Positions 12,900 to 39,101 of a DNA stretch of 64,000 nt are shown here, piece by piece. Location of the stretch: contig JAEUWY010000004.1 in assembly GCA_022059125.1 (NCBI GenBank), positions 1 to 64,000 on the forward strand, given 5' to 3'. The notes under the pieces were generated by a model. The model saw nothing but the letters and a program-made list of their open reading frames with translations, ran no database searches and was not told where the DNA came from. Both the position numbers and the translations under genes were made by a program. Origin of the DNA: Corynespora cassiicola (lineage: Eukaryota; Ascomycota; Dothideomycetes; Pleosporales; Corynesporascaceae). Each line of letters starts with the position of its first letter. Position 1 is the first letter of the stretch.

Positions 12900-13810
12900 A
12901 TGATTAGCTTTTGGCAGACCATATTAGTCGGTTTTTTTCCCTTCAGCATTATCGTTGTTGCACAGACGTCGTCTGCTTCGTTCGGGTACCCCAGGCCAGA
13001 AACAACTGAGTCTCCAAGGATAAAGATCAATGTTTTCGATACCATAGAGGTAGAATGGGAGTCTAACTTTGACCACGCAAGGTTGTATCTCTGGTGCAAG
13101 TCGAACGAGGTAGCAACAGCATCTTGTACGTCTTGGCTTCTCTACACTCAGATGTAGATTCGTGGCATAATTCTCACATACCTTGAACCACAGGGTTTGA
13201 CAAGTTAGTGAACATGACTGGAAACATATCATATTCACCCGCTCTGGAATCCGATATAAACCGTGACTGGTCGGAACCTTGGAATTGCCATTTCGACCTG
13301 CTGTACATCGAGGCACCAAATAATCGAGGATATCAAGGTCCTCCAATCTACATCACCTCGTCAAAAACAGACGTGTCCACAACATTCGCTCGTGATTATA
13401 CGAGATCAGTTATGCTATCCGAAATTACCCTTCCCACCAGAGCACCGAGCTCGATCTCTTCTCAAGTCAGCCCGACTGTTGCTGCTACATTCTCACCATC
13501 TCCAGAGCCTTCTGAGACACCCACTGGTAATAGTGAGAGTGATGTCTTGACATCGGGTGCTAAAGCTGGGATAGCGGTCGGAGCTACACTAGGGGCTGTT
13601 GCCATTGGTGGCCTTGGATATCTTTTCTATCGTAATCGCCGAAAGCTGAAAGAGCTTGAATCAAGGATTGTTCAATCTGGCCCACAAGATGATATGGAAT
13701 ACAAGCCTGTGTATGCCGAGTATGCACACCAGGACATGCACACGCAGTCTAATGTGCCGCTTCAAGAGCTGGAAACCCACCGAACCCACGAGCTACCAGC
13801 TTCAAGCTGA
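12900..13810 (+). CDS. Single-pass cell-surface protein, Ser/Thr-Pro-rich stalk
   Basis: Two exons, 12900-13125 and 13194-13810, with a 68-nt intron (donor GTACGT, acceptor CACAG); 280 residues. A signal peptide covers about residues 1-21 (FWQTILVGFFPFSIIVVAQ). The ectodomain has a few Cys (LWCKS, WNCHFD) and N-glycosylation sites (NMTGNIS). It is followed by a Ser/Thr/Pro stalk (about 150-185) and one membrane helix (AGIAVGATLGAVAIGGLGYLF) with a basic stop-transfer RNRRK. The cytoplasmic tail is acidic/polar with a late SSN-free Gln-rich end. This is the layout of fungal Mid2/Wsc-like surface sensors, but no WSC or other named domain is seen, so function is unassigned. It converges on the kexin-peptide gene, with 125 bp between stops. 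Confidence 0.8.
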
Positions 13811-13935: not shown

Positions 13936-15756
13936 CTAGCAACCGGACCAAACACCAATGCCGCAAACAGCCGGGTATGCGTCGGCCATGTCCTGGCTGT
14001 CAACATCGGATGGGGGTGCGAGGCGTCCGCGCCTGCCGCCCTGGGTCTCCTGTTCCTGGCGAGTCTGAATAATATGTGTCTCCGATGAAGCTCCGACATC
14101 CAACTCCTCTGGAATGCCAAGCTCACTGGTGAGTTCGTCCAGGGTCGATCGCTTCTGTGGGTTACTGAGGATATCGCCGATGACGAGGCCATCAGCCAAA
14201 GCACCCAGACCCCCCGCAGCTCCTTCCAGAAGGTTTCCAGCAACGCGGCCGCGGGAGCGCTGAGCTTCACGCTTTTGGGGGTTGGTGAGGATGTCGCCAA
14301 TGACGAGGCCATCAGCGACAGCGCCCAAACCCCCAGCAGCTCCTTCAAGGACGTTGCCAATGACCCGACCGCGGGATCGCTGAGCTTCGCGCTTCTGAGG
14401 ATTCGCGAGAATGTCCCCAATAACAAGTCCATCAGCGATGGCGCCCAAGCCCCCGGCAGCTCCCTCCAGAACATTACCAGCAACGCGGCCACGGGAGCGC
14501 TGGGCCTCGCGTTTCTGGGGGTTGGAGAGAATATCCCCAATCACGAGTCCATCAGCGATCGCTCCTAGGCCTCCAGCAGCTCCCTCCAGAATATTACCAG
14601 CAACACGGCCACGGGATCGCTGAGGCTCGGCTTCGCGCTTCTGGTTGGCGACAATGTCTCCAATGACGAGGCCATCAGCAATGGCGCCCAAGCCCCCGGC
14701 GGCTCCCTCCAAGACGTTACCAAAGACGCGGCCGCGAGATCGCTGGGGCTCAGCCTCGCGCTTCGCGGGGGCGGGTTGGGTGAGGGCAAAGATGGTGCCA
14801 AGGTCGGCACCCGCGCCAATGAGACCAGCACCCACCTCAGCAGCATCACCAAGACGGCGGAGACCACCGCGGCGCTGAGGCTCGGGAGACGCCTCACGCT
14901 TCTGGTTGCTGACGATGTCTCCAATCACCAAGCCATCAGCCACAGCACCAACGGCTCCGGCAGCACCCTCCAGGAAGTTGCCAGCAACTCGGCCGCGGGA
15001 GCGCTGGGGCTCGGCCTCGCGCTTCTGAGGGTTGCTGAGGATGTCGCCAATCACCAAGCCGTCGGCGACTGCACCCAGACCACCTGCCGCGCCCTCGAGA
15101 ACATTTCCAAACACTCGGCCACGGGAACGCTGGGGCTCAGCTTCACGCTTCTGAGGGTTGCTGAGGATGTCGCCGATAACCAGGCCGTCAGCAACTGCAC
15201 CGAGGCCGCCTGCTGCGCCCTCAAGAACATTCCCGAAGACTCGGCCACGGGAACGCTGAGGCTCGGCTTCACGCTTCTGAGGGTTGCTGAGAATGTCCCC
15301 AATGACGAGGCCGTCGGCGACTGCACCGAGGCCGCCTGCTGCGCCCTCAAGAACGTTGCCAAAGACTCGGCCGCGAGAACGCTGGGGTTCCGCCTCACGC
15401 TTCTGGGGAGGGTTGAGGATGTCGTTGATGACCAGGCCATCGGCAATTGCTCCCAATCCACCTGCTGCGCCTTCGAAGATGTTGCCAGCAACTCGACTGC
15501 GGGAACGCTGGGGTTCCGCCTCGCGCTTCTGGGGGTTGCTAAGAATATCGCCAATAACAAGGCCGTCGGCGATTGCTCCCAATCCGCCCGCTGCGCCTTC
15601 GAGAATGTTGCCAGCAACGCGACCGCGGGAGCGCTGGGGGTCGGCCTCGCGCTTAGTAGGCTGGGAATCGGCCTCCCCTTTGCGAGTATCGACTGGAGCA
15701 GCGACCGTGACACCGGCGGTGAAAGCAAGGATAGCAGCAGCGGTAGAGGCACGCAT
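13936..15756 (-). CDS. Kexin-processed repeat precursor (KEP), twelve peptide units
   Basis: Single exon, 606 residues. A signal peptide covers 1-20 (MRASTAAAILAFTAGVTVAA), with a short pro-region to the first Lys-Arg at 35-36. Twelve units of 38-44 residues follow, each bounded by KR. Most begin EAEPQ, so KREAEP copies the Kex2 site plus Ste13 dipeptide spacer known from alpha-factor precursors. Eleven units share a basic head (RSRGRV) and a Gly/Ala/Ile/Leu-rich amphipathic body (GNVLEGAAGGLGA, ADGLVIGDIL). Unit 7 (288-331) is different (GGLRRLGDAAEVGAG). A 70-residue tail has RR at 576-577 and ends in a two-Cys segment (VCGIGVWSGC). Units lack Tyr and Cys, unlike ustiloxin-type cyclic peptide precursors. 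The layout resembles Rep1 repellents and Ece1 of other fungi; whether these peptides are surface-active, signalling or antimicrobial is unknown. Units 3, 4 and 5 are identical as protein yet differ at silent sites. Confidence 0.9.
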   Translation of the reverse strand: MRASTAAAILAFTAGVTVAAPVDTRKGEADSQPTKREADPQRSRGRVAGNILEGAAGGLGAIADGLVIGDILSNPQKREAEPQRSRSRVAGNIFEGAAGGLGAIADGLVINDILNPPQKREAEPQRSRGRVFGNVLEGAAGGLGAVADGLVIGDILSNPQKREAEPQRSRGRVFGNVLEGAAGGLGAVADGLVIGDILSNPQKREAEPQRSRGRVFGNVLEGAAGGLGAVADGLVIGDILSNPQKREAEPQRSRGRVAGNFLEGAAGAVGAVADGLVIGDIVSNQKREASPEPQRRGGLRRLGDAAEVGAGLIGAGADLGTIFALTQPAPAKREAEPQRSRGRVFGNVLEGAAGGLGAIADGLVIGDIVANQKREAEPQRSRGRVAGNILEGAAGGLGAIADGLVIGDILSNPQKREAQRSRGRVAGNVLEGAAGGLGAIADGLVIGDILANPQKREAQRSRGRVIGNVLEGAAGGLGAVADGLVIGDILTNPQKREAQRSRGRVAGNLLEGAAGGLGALADGLVIGDILSNPQKRSTLDELTSELGIPEELDVGASSETHIIQTRQEQETQGGRRGRLAPPSDVDSQDMADAYPAVCGIGVWSGC

Positions 15757-15868
15757 TTTGAATGTGGTTGAGAAAAAGGGTGAAAGGTTGAAAGAGAAGG
15801 GGGCTGTTTGAGAATCGAAGAAGTGGAAAAGATTTCAAGTTGCAGCTGGTGCAATTGTTGGCAAAAGA

Positions 15869-15922
15869 ATCTGAGCTTGCAGAAGGATCTGAACTTGCAG
15901 AAGGATCTGAACTTGCAGATGG
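15869..15922. repeat. Three 18-bp direct repeats in the precursor's leader
   Basis: The unit atctgaacttgcagaagg occurs three times in a row (15869-15886, 15887-15904, 15905-15922) with one or two mismatches. It lies 110-165 bp upstream of the ATG of the kexin-precursor gene, so within its 5' leader or core promoter. Confidence 0.85.
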
Positions 15923-15930
15923 TTTGAAGT

Positions 15931-15978
15931 GAAGAAGAGAAGAAGAGAAGAAGAGAAGAAGAGAAGAAGAGAAGAAGA
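15931..15978. repeat. GAAGAAGA microsatellite (CT-rich tract of the minus-strand gene)
   Basis: Six perfect copies of the 8-mer GAAGAAGA. Read on the strand of the kexin-precursor gene this is a TCTTCTTC pyrimidine tract between TATA box and ATG. Such tracts mark strong promoters in filamentous fungi. Confidence 0.85.
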
Positions 15979-16025
15979 GGCGAATGATGCTGTGGTACTG
16001 TTCCAAAGCCGGCCGCGAGGGTTCT

Positions 16026-21341: not shown

Positions 21342-24300
21342 TCAGCCACGTTTCACGAAACTGTTTTTTGGCACTCGTACGATCCAGTAGATTAATGCTG
21401 CCACAAGAATGTTGAATATGCAGTACCCCCACATGAGCCCAAAGTCTCGCCAACGGTGACCAAAGCTCATGTTCATACCTGCAAGGAACTCGTTGCTCTC
21501 CGAAATCCTGCAGTATTGACATATGCTGGAAGCCCCATCAACCAGATAGCCACCAACGCTGTGTATATATGGCGCCATGTACTCGCCACAAGTACTTCCA
21601 TTTGGTGCATTGAACTGCAGCAGCTCTGAAGTGGCACATGCAGCTGGAGCGTTGGCAAGACTAACGCTGAGGAAACCTTCCACCACATAGGTAAATGGAT
21701 TAGCATAGTACATGAAGACCCAGAATCCAGGGAGGTCTTCGGGACCAGCCAAAACACTGCGAAAATGTCAGATGCGAACTAGGTGCTTAATGAGCCAACT
21801 CACCCGCAAAATGCGAACATCAGTATGAAGAGTAAGTTAAGAAGCCCCCCCGCAACTTCAGCGCTTCCTATTCCAGCGATGATCAAATGTGCAAATGTGC
21901 TAGAAAATACGAAGAAAATCCAGCAAATAAGGAAGAGAGTGATTGCTCGCGAGTGGACAGCATCGGTCCACTCGGCATTTCGATCAAAGCGAAGGGGAAA
22001 GTACCAGAACAGGAACGAGAAGATGCCCATGACCTGGAAGTAACAGTCAGCTCTTTGCTTTATTATTTTTTTGATTTGATTCTTGGTAAAGAAAAGAGGG
22101 GGTGCGTACTGAATTCCACACCATTTCGACAACGACATTGGCTGCGAAAAATGCGATCCATGAATATGCTTTGGCAGGACGCTCTCTCGCTTCGTACATT
22201 GTACGCTGGGACACAAAGACTGGCATTATCTGCTGAACCATCTGACTGAAGATGAATAGGAAGATGTACACTCCAAACATCTGATTTTGAAGGCCACGTT
22301 CTGTATTTTCGTTGCCAATGAGGGCTAGACCAATGAAAAGTGCCTAGATTCATCATTACCATCAGCATCCGCAACAGCCAGCATCTCCTCTTCGAGAAAA
22401 CAGGTACTCACTGAGCCAAAGGTCAATAATGACTTTGAGAATATATAGGACGGGCTGCGCCAGTATTGCTGAAACGCTCTCTTAGTAACTTCGCGCATCT
22501 GAACACTAAAGTCCGCAGCAAATTCGGTGTAGGCCGATGGGTCGATTTCCCCAGAAGACCTGGCTGCTTTCTCGCTGAAAGCTTTCAATCGTCGCAATTC
22601 TTCTTGCACCGTCTGATACTCGCGACTTTGGCGCCACACAGATGGCCAATCAATCTCCGTGTGGGACTTGGGTGCGGCCCCGATGACTTCCAGCATATAT
22701 TCCGCCGGATTCTCGCCTTTCTGATGAGCAGTTGCTCCGTTGCGACAGAAGTAGTCCAAAAGAACGTGTGAATTCTTTCCAATATCTCCAAAGTATACAG
22801 TCCGGCCACCTTTGGCTAATAGGAGGAGTCGATCGAATCTTTGGAAAAGGGATGCTGATGGCTGGTGAATAGTGCAGAGTATAGCTTGGCCGCTTTGTGT
22901 CAACGTCTCCATTAGGTTACAAATTGACCACGATGTTTGAGAGTCGAGACCTGATGTGGGCTCGTCAAGGAACAATAGAAGCTCTGGCCTGGCAGCCAAT
23001 TCGACTCCTATGGTGGTCCTTTTCCTCTGCTCAATGTTCAATCCCTCACCGAGGTCGCCAATGACTGCATCAGCGTAGTCTCGCATACCAAGAAGGTCAA
23101 TGACAGTGTCAACATACGCCAATCTCTCCTCTTGATTATAGCGTTTCGGCTGTCGTAGCATCGCGCTGAACGTCAAAGCCTCCCGTACCGTTGCAGTGTG
23201 TAAATGGAGGTCTTGCTGAGTGACATATCCAGTCTTCCGTTGAAACGAAAAGTCGCGCATCTGTCCGTCGACAAGCATCTCTCCGGTGACTACTCCCATT
23301 GTGACACGGCTCGCCAAAACGTCAAGAAGAGTAGTTTTCCCGGCTCCCGATACACCCATCAAAGCCGTCAGAGTGCCTGGCTTTACCCAGCCATCCACAT
23401 GATCGAGAATGGTGCGCGATTTGCCCTTGACCTTCACCTCATAGCTTACGTCTTTCCAGTGAAACACAGAAGTTTGCTTTGCAAGATCTCTGGCTTTTTC
23501 CTCAGAATTTCTGTTTTCCGGCATGTGTTGCGAACTGTCCAGACAGGTCTCGACATCCGCTGGGGCTCCTCGCAGTTTCTTCAAAGCCTTTCGGGTAAAC
23601 ACAAGCACTTCGCCTTTCGATCGCTCCGAAGTTACGAGCCCAGTCGCAATCAAATACAAACCCATGAAAAAGATGGTGATAGCTACCAGGATGCCAAAGT
23701 TGCGCCAGCGGTGACTATCTTCAAAGCCGTAAACAATCCGAAGGTGATCATCCCCACGGACAAAGCTAGCTCCTGCAGATGCTCCGATAGAATCACAAAT
23801 GCGTCCTTCAGGTAAAATCTCAGACAATGAGTACTCTGGACCTGCAGGCACAAACTTGGCGCAGCTGAAGTTTTGTCCGACGAACTCGTTCAAAGCAAGA
23901 CTCTCTTGAGCATAGAAGACTGGATTTGCCCAACGAAGCCAGCCCATCCAATCGCTCAGGTAAGACTCGGGGATTGCGAATCCACTGAAAAGCATCAGAG
24001 TAAGCAAAATGATTGCAGATGGTGCAAGCGCTTGCGATGTTGTTTTGGTTATCGAACCAAGGAAACGGAAGATCATCGACATAGAGATTGTAACGGTAAA
24101 CGAGACGAGTACAAAGAAGAAGAATGGCCCAGTAGAATCTCTCCGCAGGCTTGTCATGAAGTAAATGGGGACATTGATGAAGAGCGCGTTTAGAAGCTTG
24201 TAAGGAAGATCCACAATCATGGCGGCCGAAGCCTCCGCGCTTGGATGATATAGCGCATACCGCGATTGCTTTTCGATGATCTTCCGCTTGGCGTATAGCG

Positions 24301-26004
24301 TGAGGATTTCGAGCATGCTTCCCATGGCATTTATTAGAATCGAATAAAAGATCAAAAGGTTCCGGTTGTAGAGATTTGACGAATTAGATGGTAAGTTGTA
24401 AAATATGCTTGCGATAATAAGCGACTCAAAGCAATTGGTGGTTAACATGGTGAGTGTCATCCATGGCTCGCTTATCAAGAGTTTGAAACTACGCCAAAGA
24501 TTGAGCCTGACCTGTTGCGGGAAGGACAAGGTAAAAGGCGATGACGGTCGTTGGTATTTGGATTGATGTGCGCGTCTGGTGGTAAGAAACTGCTCATGTT
24601 GATTCCCGTCGAACGGGTGCAAGGTGTTGAAAGTGTCAATGTCGGTCTTGAGTTTGGCTCGTTCTCTGCTCTCCTCCCAACAGCAAGCGAATTCTGTGGG
24701 GCTACGTGGTGGTGGTTTCCCGCTCCATCCGGGTCGAATCTGGCGTTCAGAGCCACTTGTCATCGAAGTCAAGAAGTCGGCAGTCGTTTTTTGCTCCGGA
24801 CAATGGAAACCGAGGTTTTCGAAATAAGCCTTGGCGTCCGTGGCTCGTCCAAAGTAAATTTGGTGTCCTTGATAGAGCACAATCACCTTATCAAAGAGCT
24901 TACTGAAGTTAGCAAAATCTGTTAAGAGATTCTACGGCCAATTGGGCATGATAACATAAATTATCAGCGAAAGAAACATACCCGGTAGGCTTCTTCGGGA
25001 GCTTGATAGATGGCCAGACAGGAAGTAACCCCAAAAACGTCGGCCTGTGTTCGAAGAGTGCGACAAAACTCAATGGCGTTGGCAGAGTCTAGGCCTCGAG
25101 TGCTATTGTCCCAGCACTGCAAAGGTGAATAGCTCAAGAGAGCCTCGGCGATACTAACACGTTTACGTTCGCCGCCACTTATTCCACGAACAAAGTCGTC
25201 GCCCACTCTAGTGTCTTTGGTGTGGGATATCCCCAGCATTGCCATGACCACGTCTCTCAAATGCTCGGCATAATAATGTTTTGAGATGCTACTTGGTAGA
25301 TCCATGTTTTGTGGACATCTCGCTCGAGCGGCAAAGTATAGCGTGTCCGCGACGGTGAGATATGGGAAGTGGTAGTCGAACTCGGAGTTGTAAATGGCCT
25401 CGCCTCTAAATGTCGTTTGCACTTCCTCAGGGCGTATGCCCTGGTAGTTGATCTCTGTATCCTCTGTAACTTTAAACCCGGAAGTTTCTCCGGCAATGGT
25501 CTTCAGCAGAGTTGTCGCGCCAGATCCAGGGGGGCCCAGAACGGCAAGCAGCTCACCGCTCTGTACAACACCATCAAGACCTTTCAGTATGTCGATGCGC
25601 TGTCTACTTTTTGGTGCGAGGATACTTCTAGCCATAGTCGCAGCGTCGAGAAAGAAATTTCCAACAGTCTTTTGGTAGTCCATGGTAGACCCCAAACCGT
25701 AGACATTGAGGTTGCGAAACGCGAATCCGATTGCGTTTGGAGGGTTTCCAAGCAATGCCTTTGTTTGAGTTTTGTAGAATGAGCGCGACCACAGGCGAGC
25801 GTCGAAATCTGGACTATCAGGGTCGAGGGATTTATCCGAAGGTTCAGGAAACAGATGGTGCACTCTTCCTTGAGACATTGAGGTCAACCGTCGGGCGAGC
25901 TCATGGATCTCGTCCACCATGGAGGCTTCACTCTCCGAAGTGTTGGAGCTGGCGTCTGCGGGCTCATGTTGCGAGATGGATTGGCAATTCTTGGGCGACG
26001 ACAT
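21342..26004 (-). CDS. PDR-type (ABCG) full-size ABC transporter
   Basis: Five exons read from 26004: 24982-26004, 22412-24898, 22110-22343, 21804-22033 and 21342-21756; 1462 residues, normal for the family. Intron 1 (83 nt) uses the acceptor TAAG and yields EEAYRLFDKV, exactly the family sequence. NBD1 has a degenerate Walker A GPPGSGATTLLKT (no Lys, normal in fungal PDR pumps), signature RGISGGERKRVSIAEAL and a Walker B with Asn (CWDNSTRGLD). NBD2 is canonical: GVSGAGKTTLLD, LNIEQRKRTTIGVEL, LLLFLDEPTSGLD. Each is followed by six membrane helices, giving the (NBD-TMD)x2 order. Predicted role: ATP-driven efflux of lipophilic drugs or metabolites at the plasma membrane. It is divergent from a Zn2Cys6 regulator 384 bp away, which may control it. 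Confidence 0.95.
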
Positions 26005-26388
26005 TTGATCAGAGGCGTGCAGGTGTTGGGGTCGCTGCTCTTCGAACGTGGTAAAGAAAATCCCAATGTCCTCCGAAGTCTTATAATGTGGGCCTCCATA
26101 GGGCCCCGGTCCGCAATGAAAAATCTATACATCTCGTCTGCTTTGCGCTGAAGCTTGGTGGCTCGTGTGGAGAGTGATGGAGGAACGAGTGGCGCTAGTG
26201 CTTTGAGTGGAGCGGGACCTTGCAGGGATTGCGCACATTCGGAATGTGCGAAGGTCCAGTTCCGCGGGGACGCTGGCCCGACAGCAGCGGCTTGCAGTCG
26301 GCGAAGCAACGACATACATGCTTCACATTTCCATCTCGGTTCGCGTACATTGAGCTCCGTGTCCATCAGCTCTTGATCACGAGTGGTT
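26005..26388. promoter_or_regulatory. Shared divergent promoter of ABC transporter and Zn2Cys6 factor
   Basis: 384 bp between the two start codons (ABC gene leftward, factor rightward). A 161-codon minus frame covers it but overlaps the ABC start out of frame and has no domain, so it is taken as chance. CCG/CGG triplets of the kind bound by Zn2Cys6 factors occur (for example 26105-26113 and 26155-26190), but no clear spaced pair can be claimed. Confidence 0.45.
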
Positions 26389-33185: not shown

Positions 33186-35512
33186 ATGGCCAGCGCCATC
33201 AGCACCGCCCGTTCTCACGCGGGCGCCGGCAATGGCTTGCTCTCGCCGCGCCTCGCCCGCTTCAACACGCTTCTTGTCTGCCTCTTCCACGCCTTTGCCC
33301 CCGTCGTCAAGGCCTTCCCCGTCTTCCAGCGCAGCCTAGACGCCCTCGAGGGCGACGACCTGCCCAAGGACCCCGACGATGCCAGCCTCTGGGTCTATCT
33401 GGGCACCGCCATCGCCCTGGTGCTGCTCGGAGGCGCCTTCGCCGGCTTGACCATAGCGTACGTGCCTTGCCCGACACCCATTCATCCTCGATGCGCTAAC
33501 ACCACCCAGCCTGATGGGCCAGGATGAAATATACCTACAGGTCATTGCCCACTCGGGCGAGGGCGCTGAGCGCAAGAATGCGAAGAAGGTGCTGCGACTG
33601 ATGAAGGCCGGCAAGCACTGGGTCCTCGTCACCCTGCTCCTGAGCAATGTCATCACCAACGAGACCCTCCCCATTGTGCTCGACCGCTCGCTGGGCGGTG
33701 GCTGGCCCGCCGTCGTTAGCTCTACGGTACTCATTGGTGAGTCTGCACCTCCTCCGTGCATGTTGCAATGCCCTCGCTAACCTCCCATCGCAAGTCATTT
33801 TTGGCGAAATCGTTCCCCAGTCCATCTGCGTTCGCTATGGTCTCCCCATCGGCGCCTGGATGTCGCCCGTCGTCCTCGGTCTCATGTACATCATGGCGCC
33901 CGTCGCATGGCCCACGGCGAAGCTGCTCGATTATCTCCTCGGAGAGGACCACGGCACCACGTACAAGAAGGCCGGACTCAAGACCCTCGTTACCCTTCAT
34001 AAGACGTTGGGCACCAGCCCCGACGAGCGCCTCAACCAAGACGAAGTCACCATCATCACGGCCGTCCTCGACCTCAAAGCCAAGGCCGTTGGCAGTATCA
34101 TGACCCCTATGAAGGACGTGTTTACCATGTCGGCTGATACCGTATTGGATGAGGACATGATGGATAATATCCTCTCTGCTGGCTATTCGCGCATTCCAAT
34201 CCATACCCCCGGTAACCCCAAGAACTTTGTCGGCATGCTTCTCGTCAAGATGCTCATCACCTACGATCCCGAAGATGCCCTGCGCGTTCGCGACTTCGCC
34301 TTGGCCACCCTCCCCGAGACGCGCCCTGAGACCAGCTGTCTCGACATCATCAATTTCTTCCAGGAGGGCAAATCGCACATGGTCCTTGTTTCCGACTTCC
34401 CCGGTGAATCCTACGGCGCTGTCGGCGTGGTCACACTCGAAGACGTCATTGAAGAACTCATTGGCGAGGAAATCATCGACGAGTCGGATGTCTTCATTGA
34501 TGTCCACAAGGCCATCCGTCGTCTTGCCCCTGCCCCCCGCACCCGTGTGCCCAAGGGCGAGATCCTAGCGGACCCCATGCGCCGCCAGTCCAGCAACAAG
34601 GTCGATGGCAGCGATTCCGAGGGAGCTCAGCCCAGGAAACTTTCGCAGCATGAAATCGGCAGCCCCAAGGGCCCTACCTTCATGATGCGCCGTCGCAGCA
34701 GCGGCGGAAATGGCACCGTCGATCGAGCTACCCTCCGAAGCGATGATCCCGAAGTCATGCAACACCTCAAGCATCTGGGTCCTTCCAACGCCGCCAATAA
34801 ACCAAAGTCGACTCGCATCAACACAGTCAAGATCAAGCCCGGTATTCCCAACACTATCCCCGAGGATTCTCAACGCCCTAACGATGGCGCTATCCCGACT
34901 CCCTCCCACGCACCTCAGGGTGGCATTGGTGAGGGCATATTGGAAAGCGCAGGCCGCGAGGCTAGCGACGGCGTGCACAGTCTCGCAGTTGGCTATGGCA
35001 CTATCGGATCTCCCAACGCCGATCGCATGTCATGGAAATCTGGAACCTCGAAAAAGAAGATTAGCGATGAACCCACTTCACCCAAATCAACCACGGCCGA
35101 CGAACACACTAGACTGATCCCTGACGACCGCGACCGCGATCATCGTGGCAACTCCAGAAATCGTTCCAGGTCTGCAAGCACCATCGCCTCTCTCAAGTCC
35201 ATTGGCTCGCCCCATAGCCCTCCCACGAAGCGACACACCGCTCGTAGTGGTAGCATCTCCGAGAATATTGTCGACATCAACGGAGTACGGAAAATTGTCT
35301 TGGAAACGACCAGTTCCAGCGATTCTGAGAGTAGACCTCTGACCGCGCAGGCCGACGGCATGGATGACAATAACCTTCATTCGGAGCAGGACGGTAGCAA
35401 AAATGGGGACAGTAAAGCTAACAAGAAGAAGCGCAAGAAGCGTGGTAAGAAGAAGAAGAATGGCGGAGAGAGCAGTGAGTCCCAGCCGTTGCTCGGCGGA
35501 GACCACAATTGA
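33186..35512 (+). CDS. Mam3/CNNM-type DUF21-CBS membrane protein
   Basis: Three exons: 33186-33457, 33510-33736 and 33795-35512; 738 residues. The first about 70 residues hold an N-terminal hydrophobic segment. The DUF21 (CNNM transmembrane) domain includes [66 protein letters not shown] (both given only in part as landmarks) and [21 protein letters not shown] pair follows ([69 protein letters not shown]). A long polar tail ends in a Lys-rich stretch and ESQPLLGG. Yeast Mam3 is a vacuolar-membrane protein affecting metal homeostasis; CNNM proteins handle Mg2+. The tail has two ExxxL(L/I) motifs (EHTRLI, ESQPLL) suited to vacuolar sorting. Confidence 0.93.
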
Positions 35513-35985
35513 TCTCCTTGCTCTCCCTGTTGATGCAATTTCCTAGGCGTTTCAAGCGGCCTCTCCATCTTTTTGCGGAGATTTTCTTAGGTCGCATCTA
35601 TTTGATAATCGGATGGGGTTCACAACGTTCACAACTTGTATCATAGCCCCTGCGCCTATACGATAGGCCTGGAGGCCCAGAATTCATTCCATCGTATATC
35701 TGCCTGCAACTTGTTCTGACACTGTACTATGCTTTCTGCGAATAAACTAACCTGCTAGTTTTGAAATGGTCGAATGTCAACACAATCACCCGTCTTGTCC
35801 AGTCCCGTGATTGTGGATAAAACCCTGCGGCGTAGTCGGCAGTACACATTTGCGGTGCTGTACTGTAACGGCTAGCATTATGCTCTTTTCATCGAGATGT
35901 TCTGCAAATACTCCATTGTCGGGTTAACCATTGCCACTTCCCTATTCGCCACCCTGTCTAGAGACTCAAGTTTCACCCCCTAGCC
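35513..35985. other. Intergenic, no gene seen
   Basis: 3' flank of the Mam3-like gene leading into the P450 pseudogene. No coding frame; no recognisable P450 membrane-anchor sequence could be found just upstream of the pseudogene. Confidence 0.5.
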
Positions 35986-37506
35986 AAAGTCCCAGGCCCG
36001 AGGTTGAATGCCATTTCCTGGCACACACACACAAAGGTGAAAGCCACGAGTTCCTGCCTGCGCTGCATGAACGGCACGGTCGCGTTGTGAGAATTGCACA
36101 TGACAAAGTCTTGGTTTGTTCCGAAGAAGCCGCGCGGGTTGGCTGTGGTCGGTACCATCGTCTTCCAGGAAAGGATATACCAGTGTAACCTCCACCAGGT
36201 GTCGGAAGCCCCTTTGTCCAGGACTTTTGGTATCAGGGTGCTGTTCACACCACTTCCAAGTCGGAGGGTGAAAACATGTTTAATCTCTTCATCGAGATGA
36301 ATAACGATCGATATCGACTCCAGCGACGCGCAATCGGCCCTGCATACTCGATGTTTGCAATGGAGAAACACAAAAACCTCGTGGAAGGAGCTGTTGAGTA
36401 TCTCATTGCTAGAATCAAGACTGGGGGGATTCTAAGTTGATTTGGGTACATGGATGAACATTTTCACTTCAGATGCATTATCAGCAGTAAGCTCGACGGA
36501 GACTCCAGACTACACTTCCCTCGGCCATGATGGAGGAAACAAGGCCGCAGACGACAGAACCTGGGCCTGTTTCACCTCCTTTGGCTTATTTCCGCCACTG
36601 ATAAGACTTGTACACTACTTCCCGAAATTCATCAGGTACCTACGGGTTCCCCTCGCACTCCTGTCTGGCCTGAGCGTTCCTGAAGGCGCCGCTATTGTTC
36701 CATACACGACGTCAATCGCGCTAAAGCGACTCTCGACATTACAGTCTACAAGCACTGTCAAATTGCCCACCGATCTATATGGCCGTAAACAACCGATCAG
36801 TGGCACTGATACTACCTTACCAAAGCACGACATGCTGGATGGCATCATGCGCCTCCATTCAAGTAAGACCTCTCAACTTCGGGCCTCCTGGGTTCTAATG
36901 ACTATGGTCATGAATTCTGTCGCGGGCCATGACACTGCGAGCTTTACACTAAGCTCACGTATCTACTACATATGTACTAACTCGCGTGCGAAGCGGCAAA
37001 TATCGGATGAACCAAGTGAAGCCAAGATAGATCTGCATGCGAGCTGCACAGAGATTGCATCCAAGATACCCTACCTGGTCGCTTGTATCAAAGAGGCGAT
37101 GCGCTTGTCTCCAGCCATAGGCTTCTGCCTGCCTCGAGTCGTGCCCGACACAGTCATCACATTGTGTTCGGCCCATCTCCCGGCCGGCACGACCATTGCC
37201 GTGTCCCTATGGGCTGTGCACCGAGACGCAGACATATTCGAGTCACCCGAAGAGTTCCTACCAGAACGCTGGATCCACGACGGCGACGAGGAAAAGAAGA
37301 AGCAGATTAGCAGGATGGATGCATGTTGGCTGGGTTTCGGGGCCGGCAGTCGAAGCTGCCCGAGCCAACTCCTCGCCCGTTTCCTGATGGTCAAGTTACT
37401 AATTCCTCTCTTTACCGAGCTCGACTTCGACTTGACTGCGTGGTTCTTGACGCATATGGAGGGCGTCAAGGTGCGGTTTCGCGAGCCGGGGTCGCGTCAG
37501 GGATAG
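35986..37506 (+). pseudogene. Cytochrome P450, disrupted N-terminal half
   Basis: At 36010-36426, with frame changes and a stop, pieces such as HERHGRVVRIAHDKVLVCSEEAAR, RYRLQRRAIGPAYSM and LIARIKTGG read as the N-terminal third of a pisatin-demethylase/benzoate-hydroxylase-like P450 (landmarks only). A TGA and a frame change near 36435 interrupt it. From 36445 (DLGTWMNIFTSDALS) one frame stays open to 37506: the I-helix is AGHDTASFTL, the K-helix KEAMRLSP has ExxR intact, the PERF region is EEFLPERW, and the haem loop is FGAGSRSCPSQ. The haem Cys is kept but the usual Gly two residues after it is lost. No membrane anchor or ATG is found. The 3' half looks recently intact, the 5' half decayed. 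Confidence 0.8.
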
Positions 37507-37919
37507 GATGGTCTAGCTCTGTAGGGCGGATCAGGGATTCTCCAGCGCCACCTAGGGTCCGAGGATGCGGGAACGCGAGGGGGCCAGAGATCTGGGGATG
37601 CAGATTGACGAGCCACATGGTTGCGAGATCGTCGTTTGGGGGGGGGGTTTTCGGCTGCGCTTGCGGGTTCGCTGCGAGGGTGTTGCTGTCTCGTCTCAGG
37701 CCCCGAGGCATCTGACCTGAAGTGTTTCATGACGTCACTATATTTAGGGTAACAGAATGTAATCGTCTGGCGGACGGCTTTTATTTCTTTGGACACGGTT
37801 TCTTATTTGCAATTGCATATATTCGAGTGGAACTTCCCTTGGCTCTCTACACCATCGTTGGGATTTCGCCGGTGAGATATATCAATCAGGGAATGCGTTG
37901 AGCCGACAACTGCACAGCA
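37507..37919. other. Intergenic, no gene seen
   Basis: P450 relic 3' flank and promoter of the gene at 37920. A run of ten G's lies at about 37639-37648. Confidence 0.5.
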
Positions 37920-39101
37920 ATGGATCTTTTAACGCAATATGGAAGTCCGCCAACCAACTACCTGGGCACCACGCTGTTTTTGTCGTACATTGCCTCGGCG
38001 CTGTATCTCACGTTCTCGATTTCAATCTCGCTTCACGCAAAATATACCGCCATCTTCCACGCCGAGGACGAGCCTACTCCAGAGTCAAAATCGAAATCGA
38101 AAGATGCCAAGGACTCCAAAAACTCCAAAAATGACGACTTGAAAGAATCTCAATGCCTCGCCTCCGCAAAGGAGGCCCGAAGGCGCCACATCCAAATCTA
38201 CGCCATGCTGTCCGGCATAATCTTCGCTTCGCTATCGTACCGCATGCTGCACTTTCTCACCCTCTCCTTTTACGCGTGGAGAGGCGAAAAGTCGCACCTG
38301 GGAAAGGATGTCCCCATCAGCGGCGGTGAGATCGGAGCCTGGATGCTCGAGACGAGCCTGTTTGACGATTTTGCGCACGAGCTGGTGCGGGACGGGCCCA
38401 GCGCTGTGTGGGCGCAGCTCGCGATCCTGGGGACGTGGTTTTGGGGGTTGTGGATGGCGACGAAAGGTATGTTTGACTTCTGCCCGATATAGATGAGACG
38501 GGATGGTACACCTGTGTGAAATCTGCTTCCATGATGAGGGAGGGAGATGCGAGCGTTGAGCTTTTGCTAACTAGTCTGTGAGATAGCTACCCAGCGTCGC
38601 TTCACTGATACATCGATGCTGCCGTACATTCTCCTGGGACAGATCCTACCGATTAGCTTCACAGCCTCGCTCTTTGTTATTCGCCTGCACCTCGAGAGCC
38701 CAGATATCGCACCTGCGGATCCATCGTCCAAGCCCGCACCCCGCAAGTTGAAAAAGCGCGCTTCCCTCACGTTGCCCACACTCCTGCTTAACGCCTCCCT
38801 GCTATGCCTTCCCCGGCTGCAGAACCATGAGGGATTCATGTTACTCGTCCTGTTTGCGCGATTGGTGCTGCTGGTGCCGTTCTCAGGGAGGGTTAGCCTG
38901 AAAGATTCCGAAGTCATGAAGAGTATGACGGTCTCTGGGGGATTTGTAGCTGCGAACTTGGCCATGATGAGGAAGACAGTGCCGATGGGTGATGTTGCGA
39001 GGGGGTTGAAGACAGGCGGAGAAGCGCTGGGTGCATTGGGATGGGATGCAGTGCTTGGGACGGCTCTGGGTGCGGTTTTGGGGTGGGGTGGCGGGGTGTG
39101 A
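37920..39101 (+). CDS. Conserved-type multi-pass membrane protein, function unknown
   Basis: Two exons, 37920-38466 and 38587-39101; 353 residues. The donor is GTATGT and a perfect TGCTAAC branch lies at about 38564-38570. Both acceptors after it (38574 and 38586) are in phase; 38586 gives the smoother join MATKATQRRFTDTSM. The protein has about seven hydrophobic segments: YLGTTLFLSYIASALYLTF near 15-33, a charged Ser/Lys/Asp loop at 48-85, IYAMLSGIIFASLSYRML near 95, AQLAILGTWFWGLWMA near 170, MLPYILLGQILPISF near 195, LLVLFARLVLLVPF near 270, and a Gly-rich C-terminal segment. No signal peptide. I do not recognise the family; the good reading frame, splice site and codon pattern support a real gene. 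Confidence 0.8.

Follow-up and report, generated by a model that had tools for sequence, protein, structure and literature searches.

The gene at 13936..15756 on the reverse strand of the window, by which we mean the whole 64,000-nucleotide stretch of Corynespora cassiicola DNA analysed here, belongs to a real, selected, multi-gene family of KEP precursors that share a strict cutting grammar and carry at least two unlike kinds of cargo. The explanation that we regard as best, with a probability of about one in two, is that a secreted, Kex2-processed repeat protein would yield linear helical peptides acting outside the cell.

An ORF reading of the window gives one intact frame of 606 residues that begins at ATG, and splitting the protein at KR yields a signal/pro segment, 12 units of 38-44 residues and a 70-residue tail. 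Such an intact precursor with 12 KR-bounded units had been claimed in a preliminary description, and its repeats agree with the rule that KEPs hold at least three repeats of at least 8 residues between KR, KK, RK or RR, none longer than 100 residues, in a definition that also asks for a signal peptide called by SignalP (PMC7329392 and PMC6339444, both cited from parts of their text). We assign the frame as a KEP precursor gene from the ORF, its homologues and a Pfam search with the precursor that returned 0 families, as expected from the earlier claim that it matches no known family. The predicted signal peptide (MRASTAAAILAFTAGVTVAAP, 15694..15756; all parts lie on the reverse strand) is assigned from its hydrophobic N-terminus and its conservation, being of the same kind in six precursors of this genome, and is followed by a short pro-segment up to the first KR (15649..15693). 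Eleven units are of one type, type A, of which QRSRGRVFGNVLEGAAGGLGAVADGLVIGDILSNPQ is an example. Unit 1 (15529..15648) has the leader EADP before Q, and EAEP precedes Q in unit 2 (15403..15522), unit 3 (15277..15396), unit 6 (14902..15018), unit 8 (14641..14757) and unit 9 (14515..14634), the body of the last being that of unit 1 with 25 of 108 nucleotides different. Unit 4 (15151..15270) has the same peptide as unit 3 in a DNA comparison that shows 12 of 108 nucleotides to differ, and unit 5 (15025..15144), which was also placed by unit alignment and an AlphaFold2 model, shares that peptide with both. Units 10 (14395..14508), 11 (14275..14388) and 12 (14155..14268) have EA before Q. Unit 7 (QRRGGLRRLGDAAEVGAGLIGAGADLGTIFALTQPAPA, 14764..14895), assigned from the KR split and an AlphaFold2 model, has the leader EASPEP before Q, is closest to units of the precursor on contig C19, and represents a second type, type B, so that the 12 units described earlier as one peptide set stand as to their number and divide as to their kind. 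Most units had been said to begin with EAEP, which is the case for seven of the 12 (EADP in one, EASPEP in one and EA in three others). The tail (13939..14148), delimited by the KR split and residue counts, ends in VCGIGVWSGC and holds the only two Cys of the precursor together with its single Tyr and single Trp; all 12 units lack Cys and Tyr, as had been stated.

Telomere repeats occupy positions 1-94 of the window and the precursor gene is therefore subtelomeric, as proposed at the outset. An AT-rich stretch follows the repeats (positions 1-2450 of the window, with a GC content of 0.21 in the first 2 kb). The close paralogues are contig-internal, lying at approximately 1.62 of 5.48 Mb on C2 and 0.33 of 0.74 Mb on C19.

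A reading of the gene as a lone one does not survive, because the genome holds two further precursors with helical cargo and three with Cys-loop cargo. A protein search of the genome located the two intact helical-cargo precursors, one of 596 residues with 12 units, one of them type B-like (C2:1623408-1625195), and one of 748 residues with a type B head in all 14 of its units (C19:330454-332697). Searching with the first 40 residues of the C19 protein gave a gene with one predicted intron on the forward strand of C1 (C1:5594269-5596103; cargo VCAVGFGGPCNG), past whose stop another Cys-loop-like stretch is seen in a different frame. The DNA pattern KR-[DE][AP]-Q, with 58 matches on both strands against 27 for the control, led to a precursor at C20:1775039 (cargo LDACVVGGNCG), in which signal peptide and units stand in different frames and an intron is thus likely. 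With the C1 signal peptide as query the C20 gene was matched again, along with a further precursor at C4:4118285 on the reverse strand (cargo ACALVPGSEPGECND). The C1, C20 and C4 precursors have the signal peptide kind and the leaders of the helical set, and their cargo is unrelated, consisting of Cys loops. Helical and Cys-loop cargo mostly occupy separate precursors in this genome, although a single Cys loop also closes every one of the three helical precursors: the C2 precursor ends in FPDVCGQEFSTC and the C19 precursor in FLDVCGRPESSC, with two cysteines each and none elsewhere, and by eye these tails and that of the window precursor look like the cargo of the C1 and C20 genes.

Several weaker matches were also considered. 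A protein search matched residues 527-601 of the window precursor (51%, with an internal stop) to an inverted pair of relics on C9. This pair belongs to a 3.4-kb inverted duplication (C9:28908-32312 and 35115-38519) whose copies are 99.8% alike, each holding a decayed piece that resembles the 3' end of the window gene; blastn at 1e-5 did not reveal the relic. A piece beside the relic resembles, by eye, the membrane-protein gene that neighbours the window precursor, and tblastn at 1e-4 gave no match for it. A match on C5 (36%, one stop) was set aside on finding no repeats by eye, as was a weak match at C2:4767303 (E 0.8), a 202-residue KR-bearing frame with no relation by eye; C3:12112 is a further weak match (E 0.8). 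At C16:483840-485123, on the reverse strand, lies a KEP precursor whose signal peptide is of another kind and which repeats QKKIDAVDVE in tandem, between KR, more than 20 times. Around the start codon of the window gene and upstream of it, the stretches 15660-15799 and 15902-16007 contain DNA pieces that are 70-94% like the precursor genes on C2 and C19. A simple repeat of GAAGA type makes up part of the upstream stretch. The family may have promoter or leader regions in common.

The precursors of the family agree in the sequence that follows KR. The window precursor has 13 KR pairs, where 2000 shuffles give 1.28 on average and never more than 6. Its lysines sit in KR in 13 of 14 cases, as do 13 of 13 and 16 of 16 in the two other helical-cargo precursors. 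In all 38 units of these three proteins, KR is followed by one to three X-Ala or X-Pro dipeptides and then by Gln, bearing out the Kex2 plus Ste13 layout suggested in the preliminary description; A and P together have a background frequency of 0.238 in the three proteins, a value that falls to 0.161 when the first 16 homologues are taken. When every post-KR segment of the three is counted (n = 42), 38 show this ladder followed by Gln, three begin directly with Gln and one, the window tail, does neither. Adding the C1 precursor, in which X-[AP] precedes Q in 11 of 11 segments, and the C20 precursor gives 52 of 57 segments with ladder and Gln, three with Gln directly and two exceptions, namely the window tail and a two-residue piece of C20 that may be intron. 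Two further segments, with SP or DP before Q, are read from the translation of the C4 gene. Processing of the family according to KR-(X[A/P])n-Q is thus well supported by sequence, from which we infer the cleavage itself. The type B heads also contain RR, which kexin could cut too. We know of no Ste13 ladder in either Rep1 or Ece1.

Related precursors are present in other fungi, contrary to the earlier statement that no sequence match could be named. Protein searches found at least 18 homologous proteins, a lower bound given that each search scored the best 8000 or so candidates, in Bipolaris maydis, B. victoriae, B. sorokiniana and B. oryzae, Pyrenophora teres and P. tritici-repentis, Exserohilum turcicum and Bimuria novae-zelandiae, one of the 18 being grouped here by its close match to an Exserohilum protein. 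They are hypothetical proteins, one having a UniRef name that begins Atrophin-1 domain, and some of the gene models are cut or fused, one of them carrying NRPS domains. All 18 begin with M[HR].ST.A.ILAF.AGM, and the hydrophobic N-terminus is conserved across these proteins and the six precursors of this genome. The second residue is A or P in 160 of the 205 post-KR segments of at least 8 residues in the 18 homologues. Among core units, selected with a pattern that covers nothing but the body, [DE][AP] is the start in 104 of 104 (68 of 68 unique), compared to A or P in second place in 47 of 77 unique non-core segments. The residue after the ladder is Q in 56 and R in seven of the 68 unique core units, and Gln is consequently common, though not universal, in the relatives. 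Several Pyrenophora precursors mix helical units with Cys-pair units.

Comparison of the units at the DNA level argues that the peptide itself is under selection, since the eleven type A units of the window are nearly identical as protein while their DNA has diverged. Over the first 32 codons of these eleven units, with the type B unit 7 left out, dS is 1.52, dN 0.072 and dN/dS 0.047, dS values this near saturation being rough. Pairwise differences at codon positions 1, 2 and 3 number 215, 50 and 979, and synonymous changes account for 903 of the 1059 codon pairs that differ in the true frame; the two alternative frames give 91 of 1077 and 29 of 1049. Units 3, 4 and 5 have the same peptide although 12-15 of their 108 bases differ, which implies that the window array is old and that every copy of the peptide has been kept by selection. 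In the C2 precursor dN/dS is 0.233 (10 of 12 units), and two subsets of C19 units give 0.200 (five of 14) and 0.128 (three of 14). In the C2 and C19 arrays some units do not differ even in their DNA, indicating that those arrays were copied more recently. The silent divergence of the window array, as opposed to the DNA identity seen in C2, could reflect an escape from repeat-induced mutation or from collapse of the array.

The body of the unit is predicted to form one helix. AlphaFold2 models show a single helix over residues 2-33 of 36 for a type A unit (pLDDT 87.2, from a 12-row alignment) and over residues 3-33 of 38 for the type B unit (pLDDT 91.4, from a single sequence). Conservation among 108 unique units, in an alignment that includes some non-core rows and is independent of the helix model, peaks at 100 degrees per residue (p = 0.0026, or 0.019 for the best angle between 85 and 115 degrees), and one face of the helix carries conserved Gly, Glu, Gly and Asp. 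Amphipathic character, which had been attributed to the peptides, finds weak support in the window units, the helical moment of all 12 giving p values of 0.09-0.32 against shuffles; those of the 14 C19 units are 0.08-0.42, and 10 of the 12 C2 units reach p <= 0.05. A small-xxx-small-xxx-small motif occurs in all 38 units, in a setting where shuffles average 30.5 and reach 38. The units have a net charge of 0 to +2 with acidic bodies, and in charge they differ from common cationic lytic peptides.

In the mechanism that we propose, the signal peptide would lead the precursor into the secretory pathway, kexin would cut after each KR, and a Kex1-type carboxypeptidase would take off KR. A Ste13/DPAP-type dipeptidase would then trim one to three X-Ala/X-Pro dipeptides and halt at Gln, which would probably close to pyroglutamate, so that 12 peptides of 35-38 residues, eleven of them type A and one type B, would be released together with the Cys tail. 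Each released peptide would have an Arg-rich head, a Gly/Ala-rich helical body and one conserved stripe. We hold these steps, from secretion through KR cutting and trimming to release, to be highly probable. In a final step the linear helices might pack through the Gly/Asp stripe on a membrane or surface outside the cell, in dealings with other organisms, a proposal that is more tentative and to which we give somewhat less than an even chance. The genome has one match to the kexin P-domain and four to DPPIV_N, which we take to be the family of Ste13; Glu_cyclase_2 (PF05096) has no match in the genome. Pyroglutamate can form unaided, according to the available part of PMC9769878, whose authors also report that six KEP gene knockouts gave no phenotype in pure culture and suggest that KEPs serve in interactions with other organisms. 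Fungi commonly have KEPs, whose functions are largely unknown (PMC9769878).

A wider and distinctly more tentative reading is that these genes form a Pleosporales precursor superfamily arranged in the manner of cone-snail venom genes, with one signal peptide, the grammar KR-(X[A/P])n-Q and exchangeable cargo, whose peptides might act together. Two types of Gly-zipper helix, together with small peptides that form Cys loops, would make up the cargo, and the two helix types might, for example, enter a joint assembly.

Other fates for the peptides appear less probable. Were they surface-coating repellents, the KR-cut peptides would assemble on the wall of the hypha and, like those of Ustilago Rep1, render it water-repellent; one KR-cut precursor does hold many similar peptides of 35-40 residues that would be made in bulk, and Rep1 peptides form amyloid-like fibrils (PMC9769878, in part). 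The models, however, predict one alpha helix rather than a strand, the 38 units show a low moment at 165 degrees, the beta angle (p 0.37-0.94), and we consider a repellent function unlikely. Still less probable is a role in signalling from one fungal cell to another, with the peptides as alpha-pheromone-like ligands read by a receptor. The layout is that of alpha-factor precursors, the sequence is under strong purifying selection, and the Ste13 signature in Ascomycota is described in the available text of PMC6339444 as generally dedicated to alpha pheromones. Nevertheless, PYG[LM]P[IV]G, the core reported for pheromones of Pleosporales (PMC6339444), is absent from all units. A DNA pattern for this core gave 0 matches anywhere in the genome, so that it did not turn up a separate pheromone gene either. 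In addition, a single precursor here holds many hydrophobic variants.

Tyrosine in the core marks the dikaritin family, whereas all 12 window units lack it, in keeping with the earlier claim that these are not Tyr-based dikaritins. Dikaritin and ustiloxin precursors do resemble the present ones in their KR-cut repeated cores, and further modification of the peptides by cyclisation, as in dikaritin-type RiPPs, might be entertained given that the genome has at least 26 matches to UstYa (PF11807) and that a DUF3328 gene lies near 22% of the KEP genes surveyed in PMC7329392 (as given in the text available). Among the matches listed, however, none lies in the window, as the preliminary description had anticipated, and the nearest are 1.49 Mb from the window gene (starting at 1,509,300 on its contig), 1.07 Mb from the C2 locus and 0.21 Mb from the C19 locus, making such modification very improbable. 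Pfam searches with 10 of the 61 non-overlapping window ORFs of at least 110 residues matched a family for eight, and with 10 of 37 ORFs at the C2 and C19 loci for six, none being UstYa; these 14 of the 20 scanned ORFs represent ordinary families. Neighbours shared with the other loci were not found by tblastn at E 1e-4 with window ORFs of at least 80 residues, a search that left out ORFs starting at 13.9-15.9 kb and gave one weak match, from an ORF at 36.4 kb. With no listed UstYa match near and no shared neighbours found, the window precursor looks like a stand-alone gene rather than part of a cluster. Its surroundings include a gene at 12900-13810 on the forward strand that by eye has a signal peptide, an intron and one transmembrane stretch and whose second exon matches no Pfam family, and a PDR-type ABC transporter across two adjoining frames at 22328-26124 on the reverse strand.

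Finally, the view that the gene encodes a structural repeat protein of the wall, never cleaved at KR, would accord with a long, repetitive, secreted protein and with the matches of a PDB phmmer search to three designed repeat proteins (E 8.8e-14, 1.3e-8 and 0.008; we rejected kinship, and the likeness is probably one of composition and period), but it is scarcely credible, since leaders in strict register, lysine nearly confined to KR and one grammar around unrelated cargo make sense only if KR is cut.

The architecture of the precursor places the family within a known class. KEPs (Le Marquer 2019, PMC6339444; Umemura 2020, PMC7329392) are likewise secreted precursors with Kex2-bounded repeats, some bearing Ste13 signatures, and in the available text of PMC6339444 such signatures are reported in some basidiomycete and Glomeromycotina KEPs. 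What sets the present family apart is a single conserved signal peptide, a strict grammar of X-[AP] and Gln, and cargo of two unlike kinds; the conserved core motifs that this text names do not include it. Ascomycete alpha-pheromone precursors share the Kex2/Kex1/Ste13 layout and the EA, EP, DA and DP ladders, but the peptides here are helical by prediction, 35-38 residues long and present as many variants per precursor. The Coprinopsis cinerea KEP 490115 is alike in that its Ste13 motif is removed to leave an N-terminal Gln, and when made in Pichia its peptides were found by mass spectrometry to be trimmed, with Gln partly converted to pyroglutamate; its peptides, however, are very short (QYKAPSW), are cut at RR and come from a basidiomycete (PMC9769878, in part). 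Ustilago Rep1 and Candida Ece1/candidalysin are named among KEP-derived linear peptides in the same source, and their likeness to the present family, suggested in the preliminary description, would be an analogy of precursor layout. Types G-8 and G-9 of PMC7329392 are common to Pyrenophora, Bipolaris and Exserohilum, a DUF3328 gene being mostly near G-8 and lacking near G-9 in the part of the text cited, and one of these types may be the present family. The earlier suggestion of an undescribed system goes too far as to the architecture, which is that of KEPs, and apparently stands for the family, no description of which was found in the literature searched; we claim novelty relative to these texts only.

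The combination of one grammar with unrelated cargo suggests a fixed module for secretion and cutting behind which the cargo is exchangeable. A strict Ste13 grammar occurs here in ascomycetes, in a family without the pheromone core. Moreover, this precursor family can be traced across several genera, and its mature peptides are predicted to the first residue, which makes them directly testable by peptidomics and with synthetic peptides.
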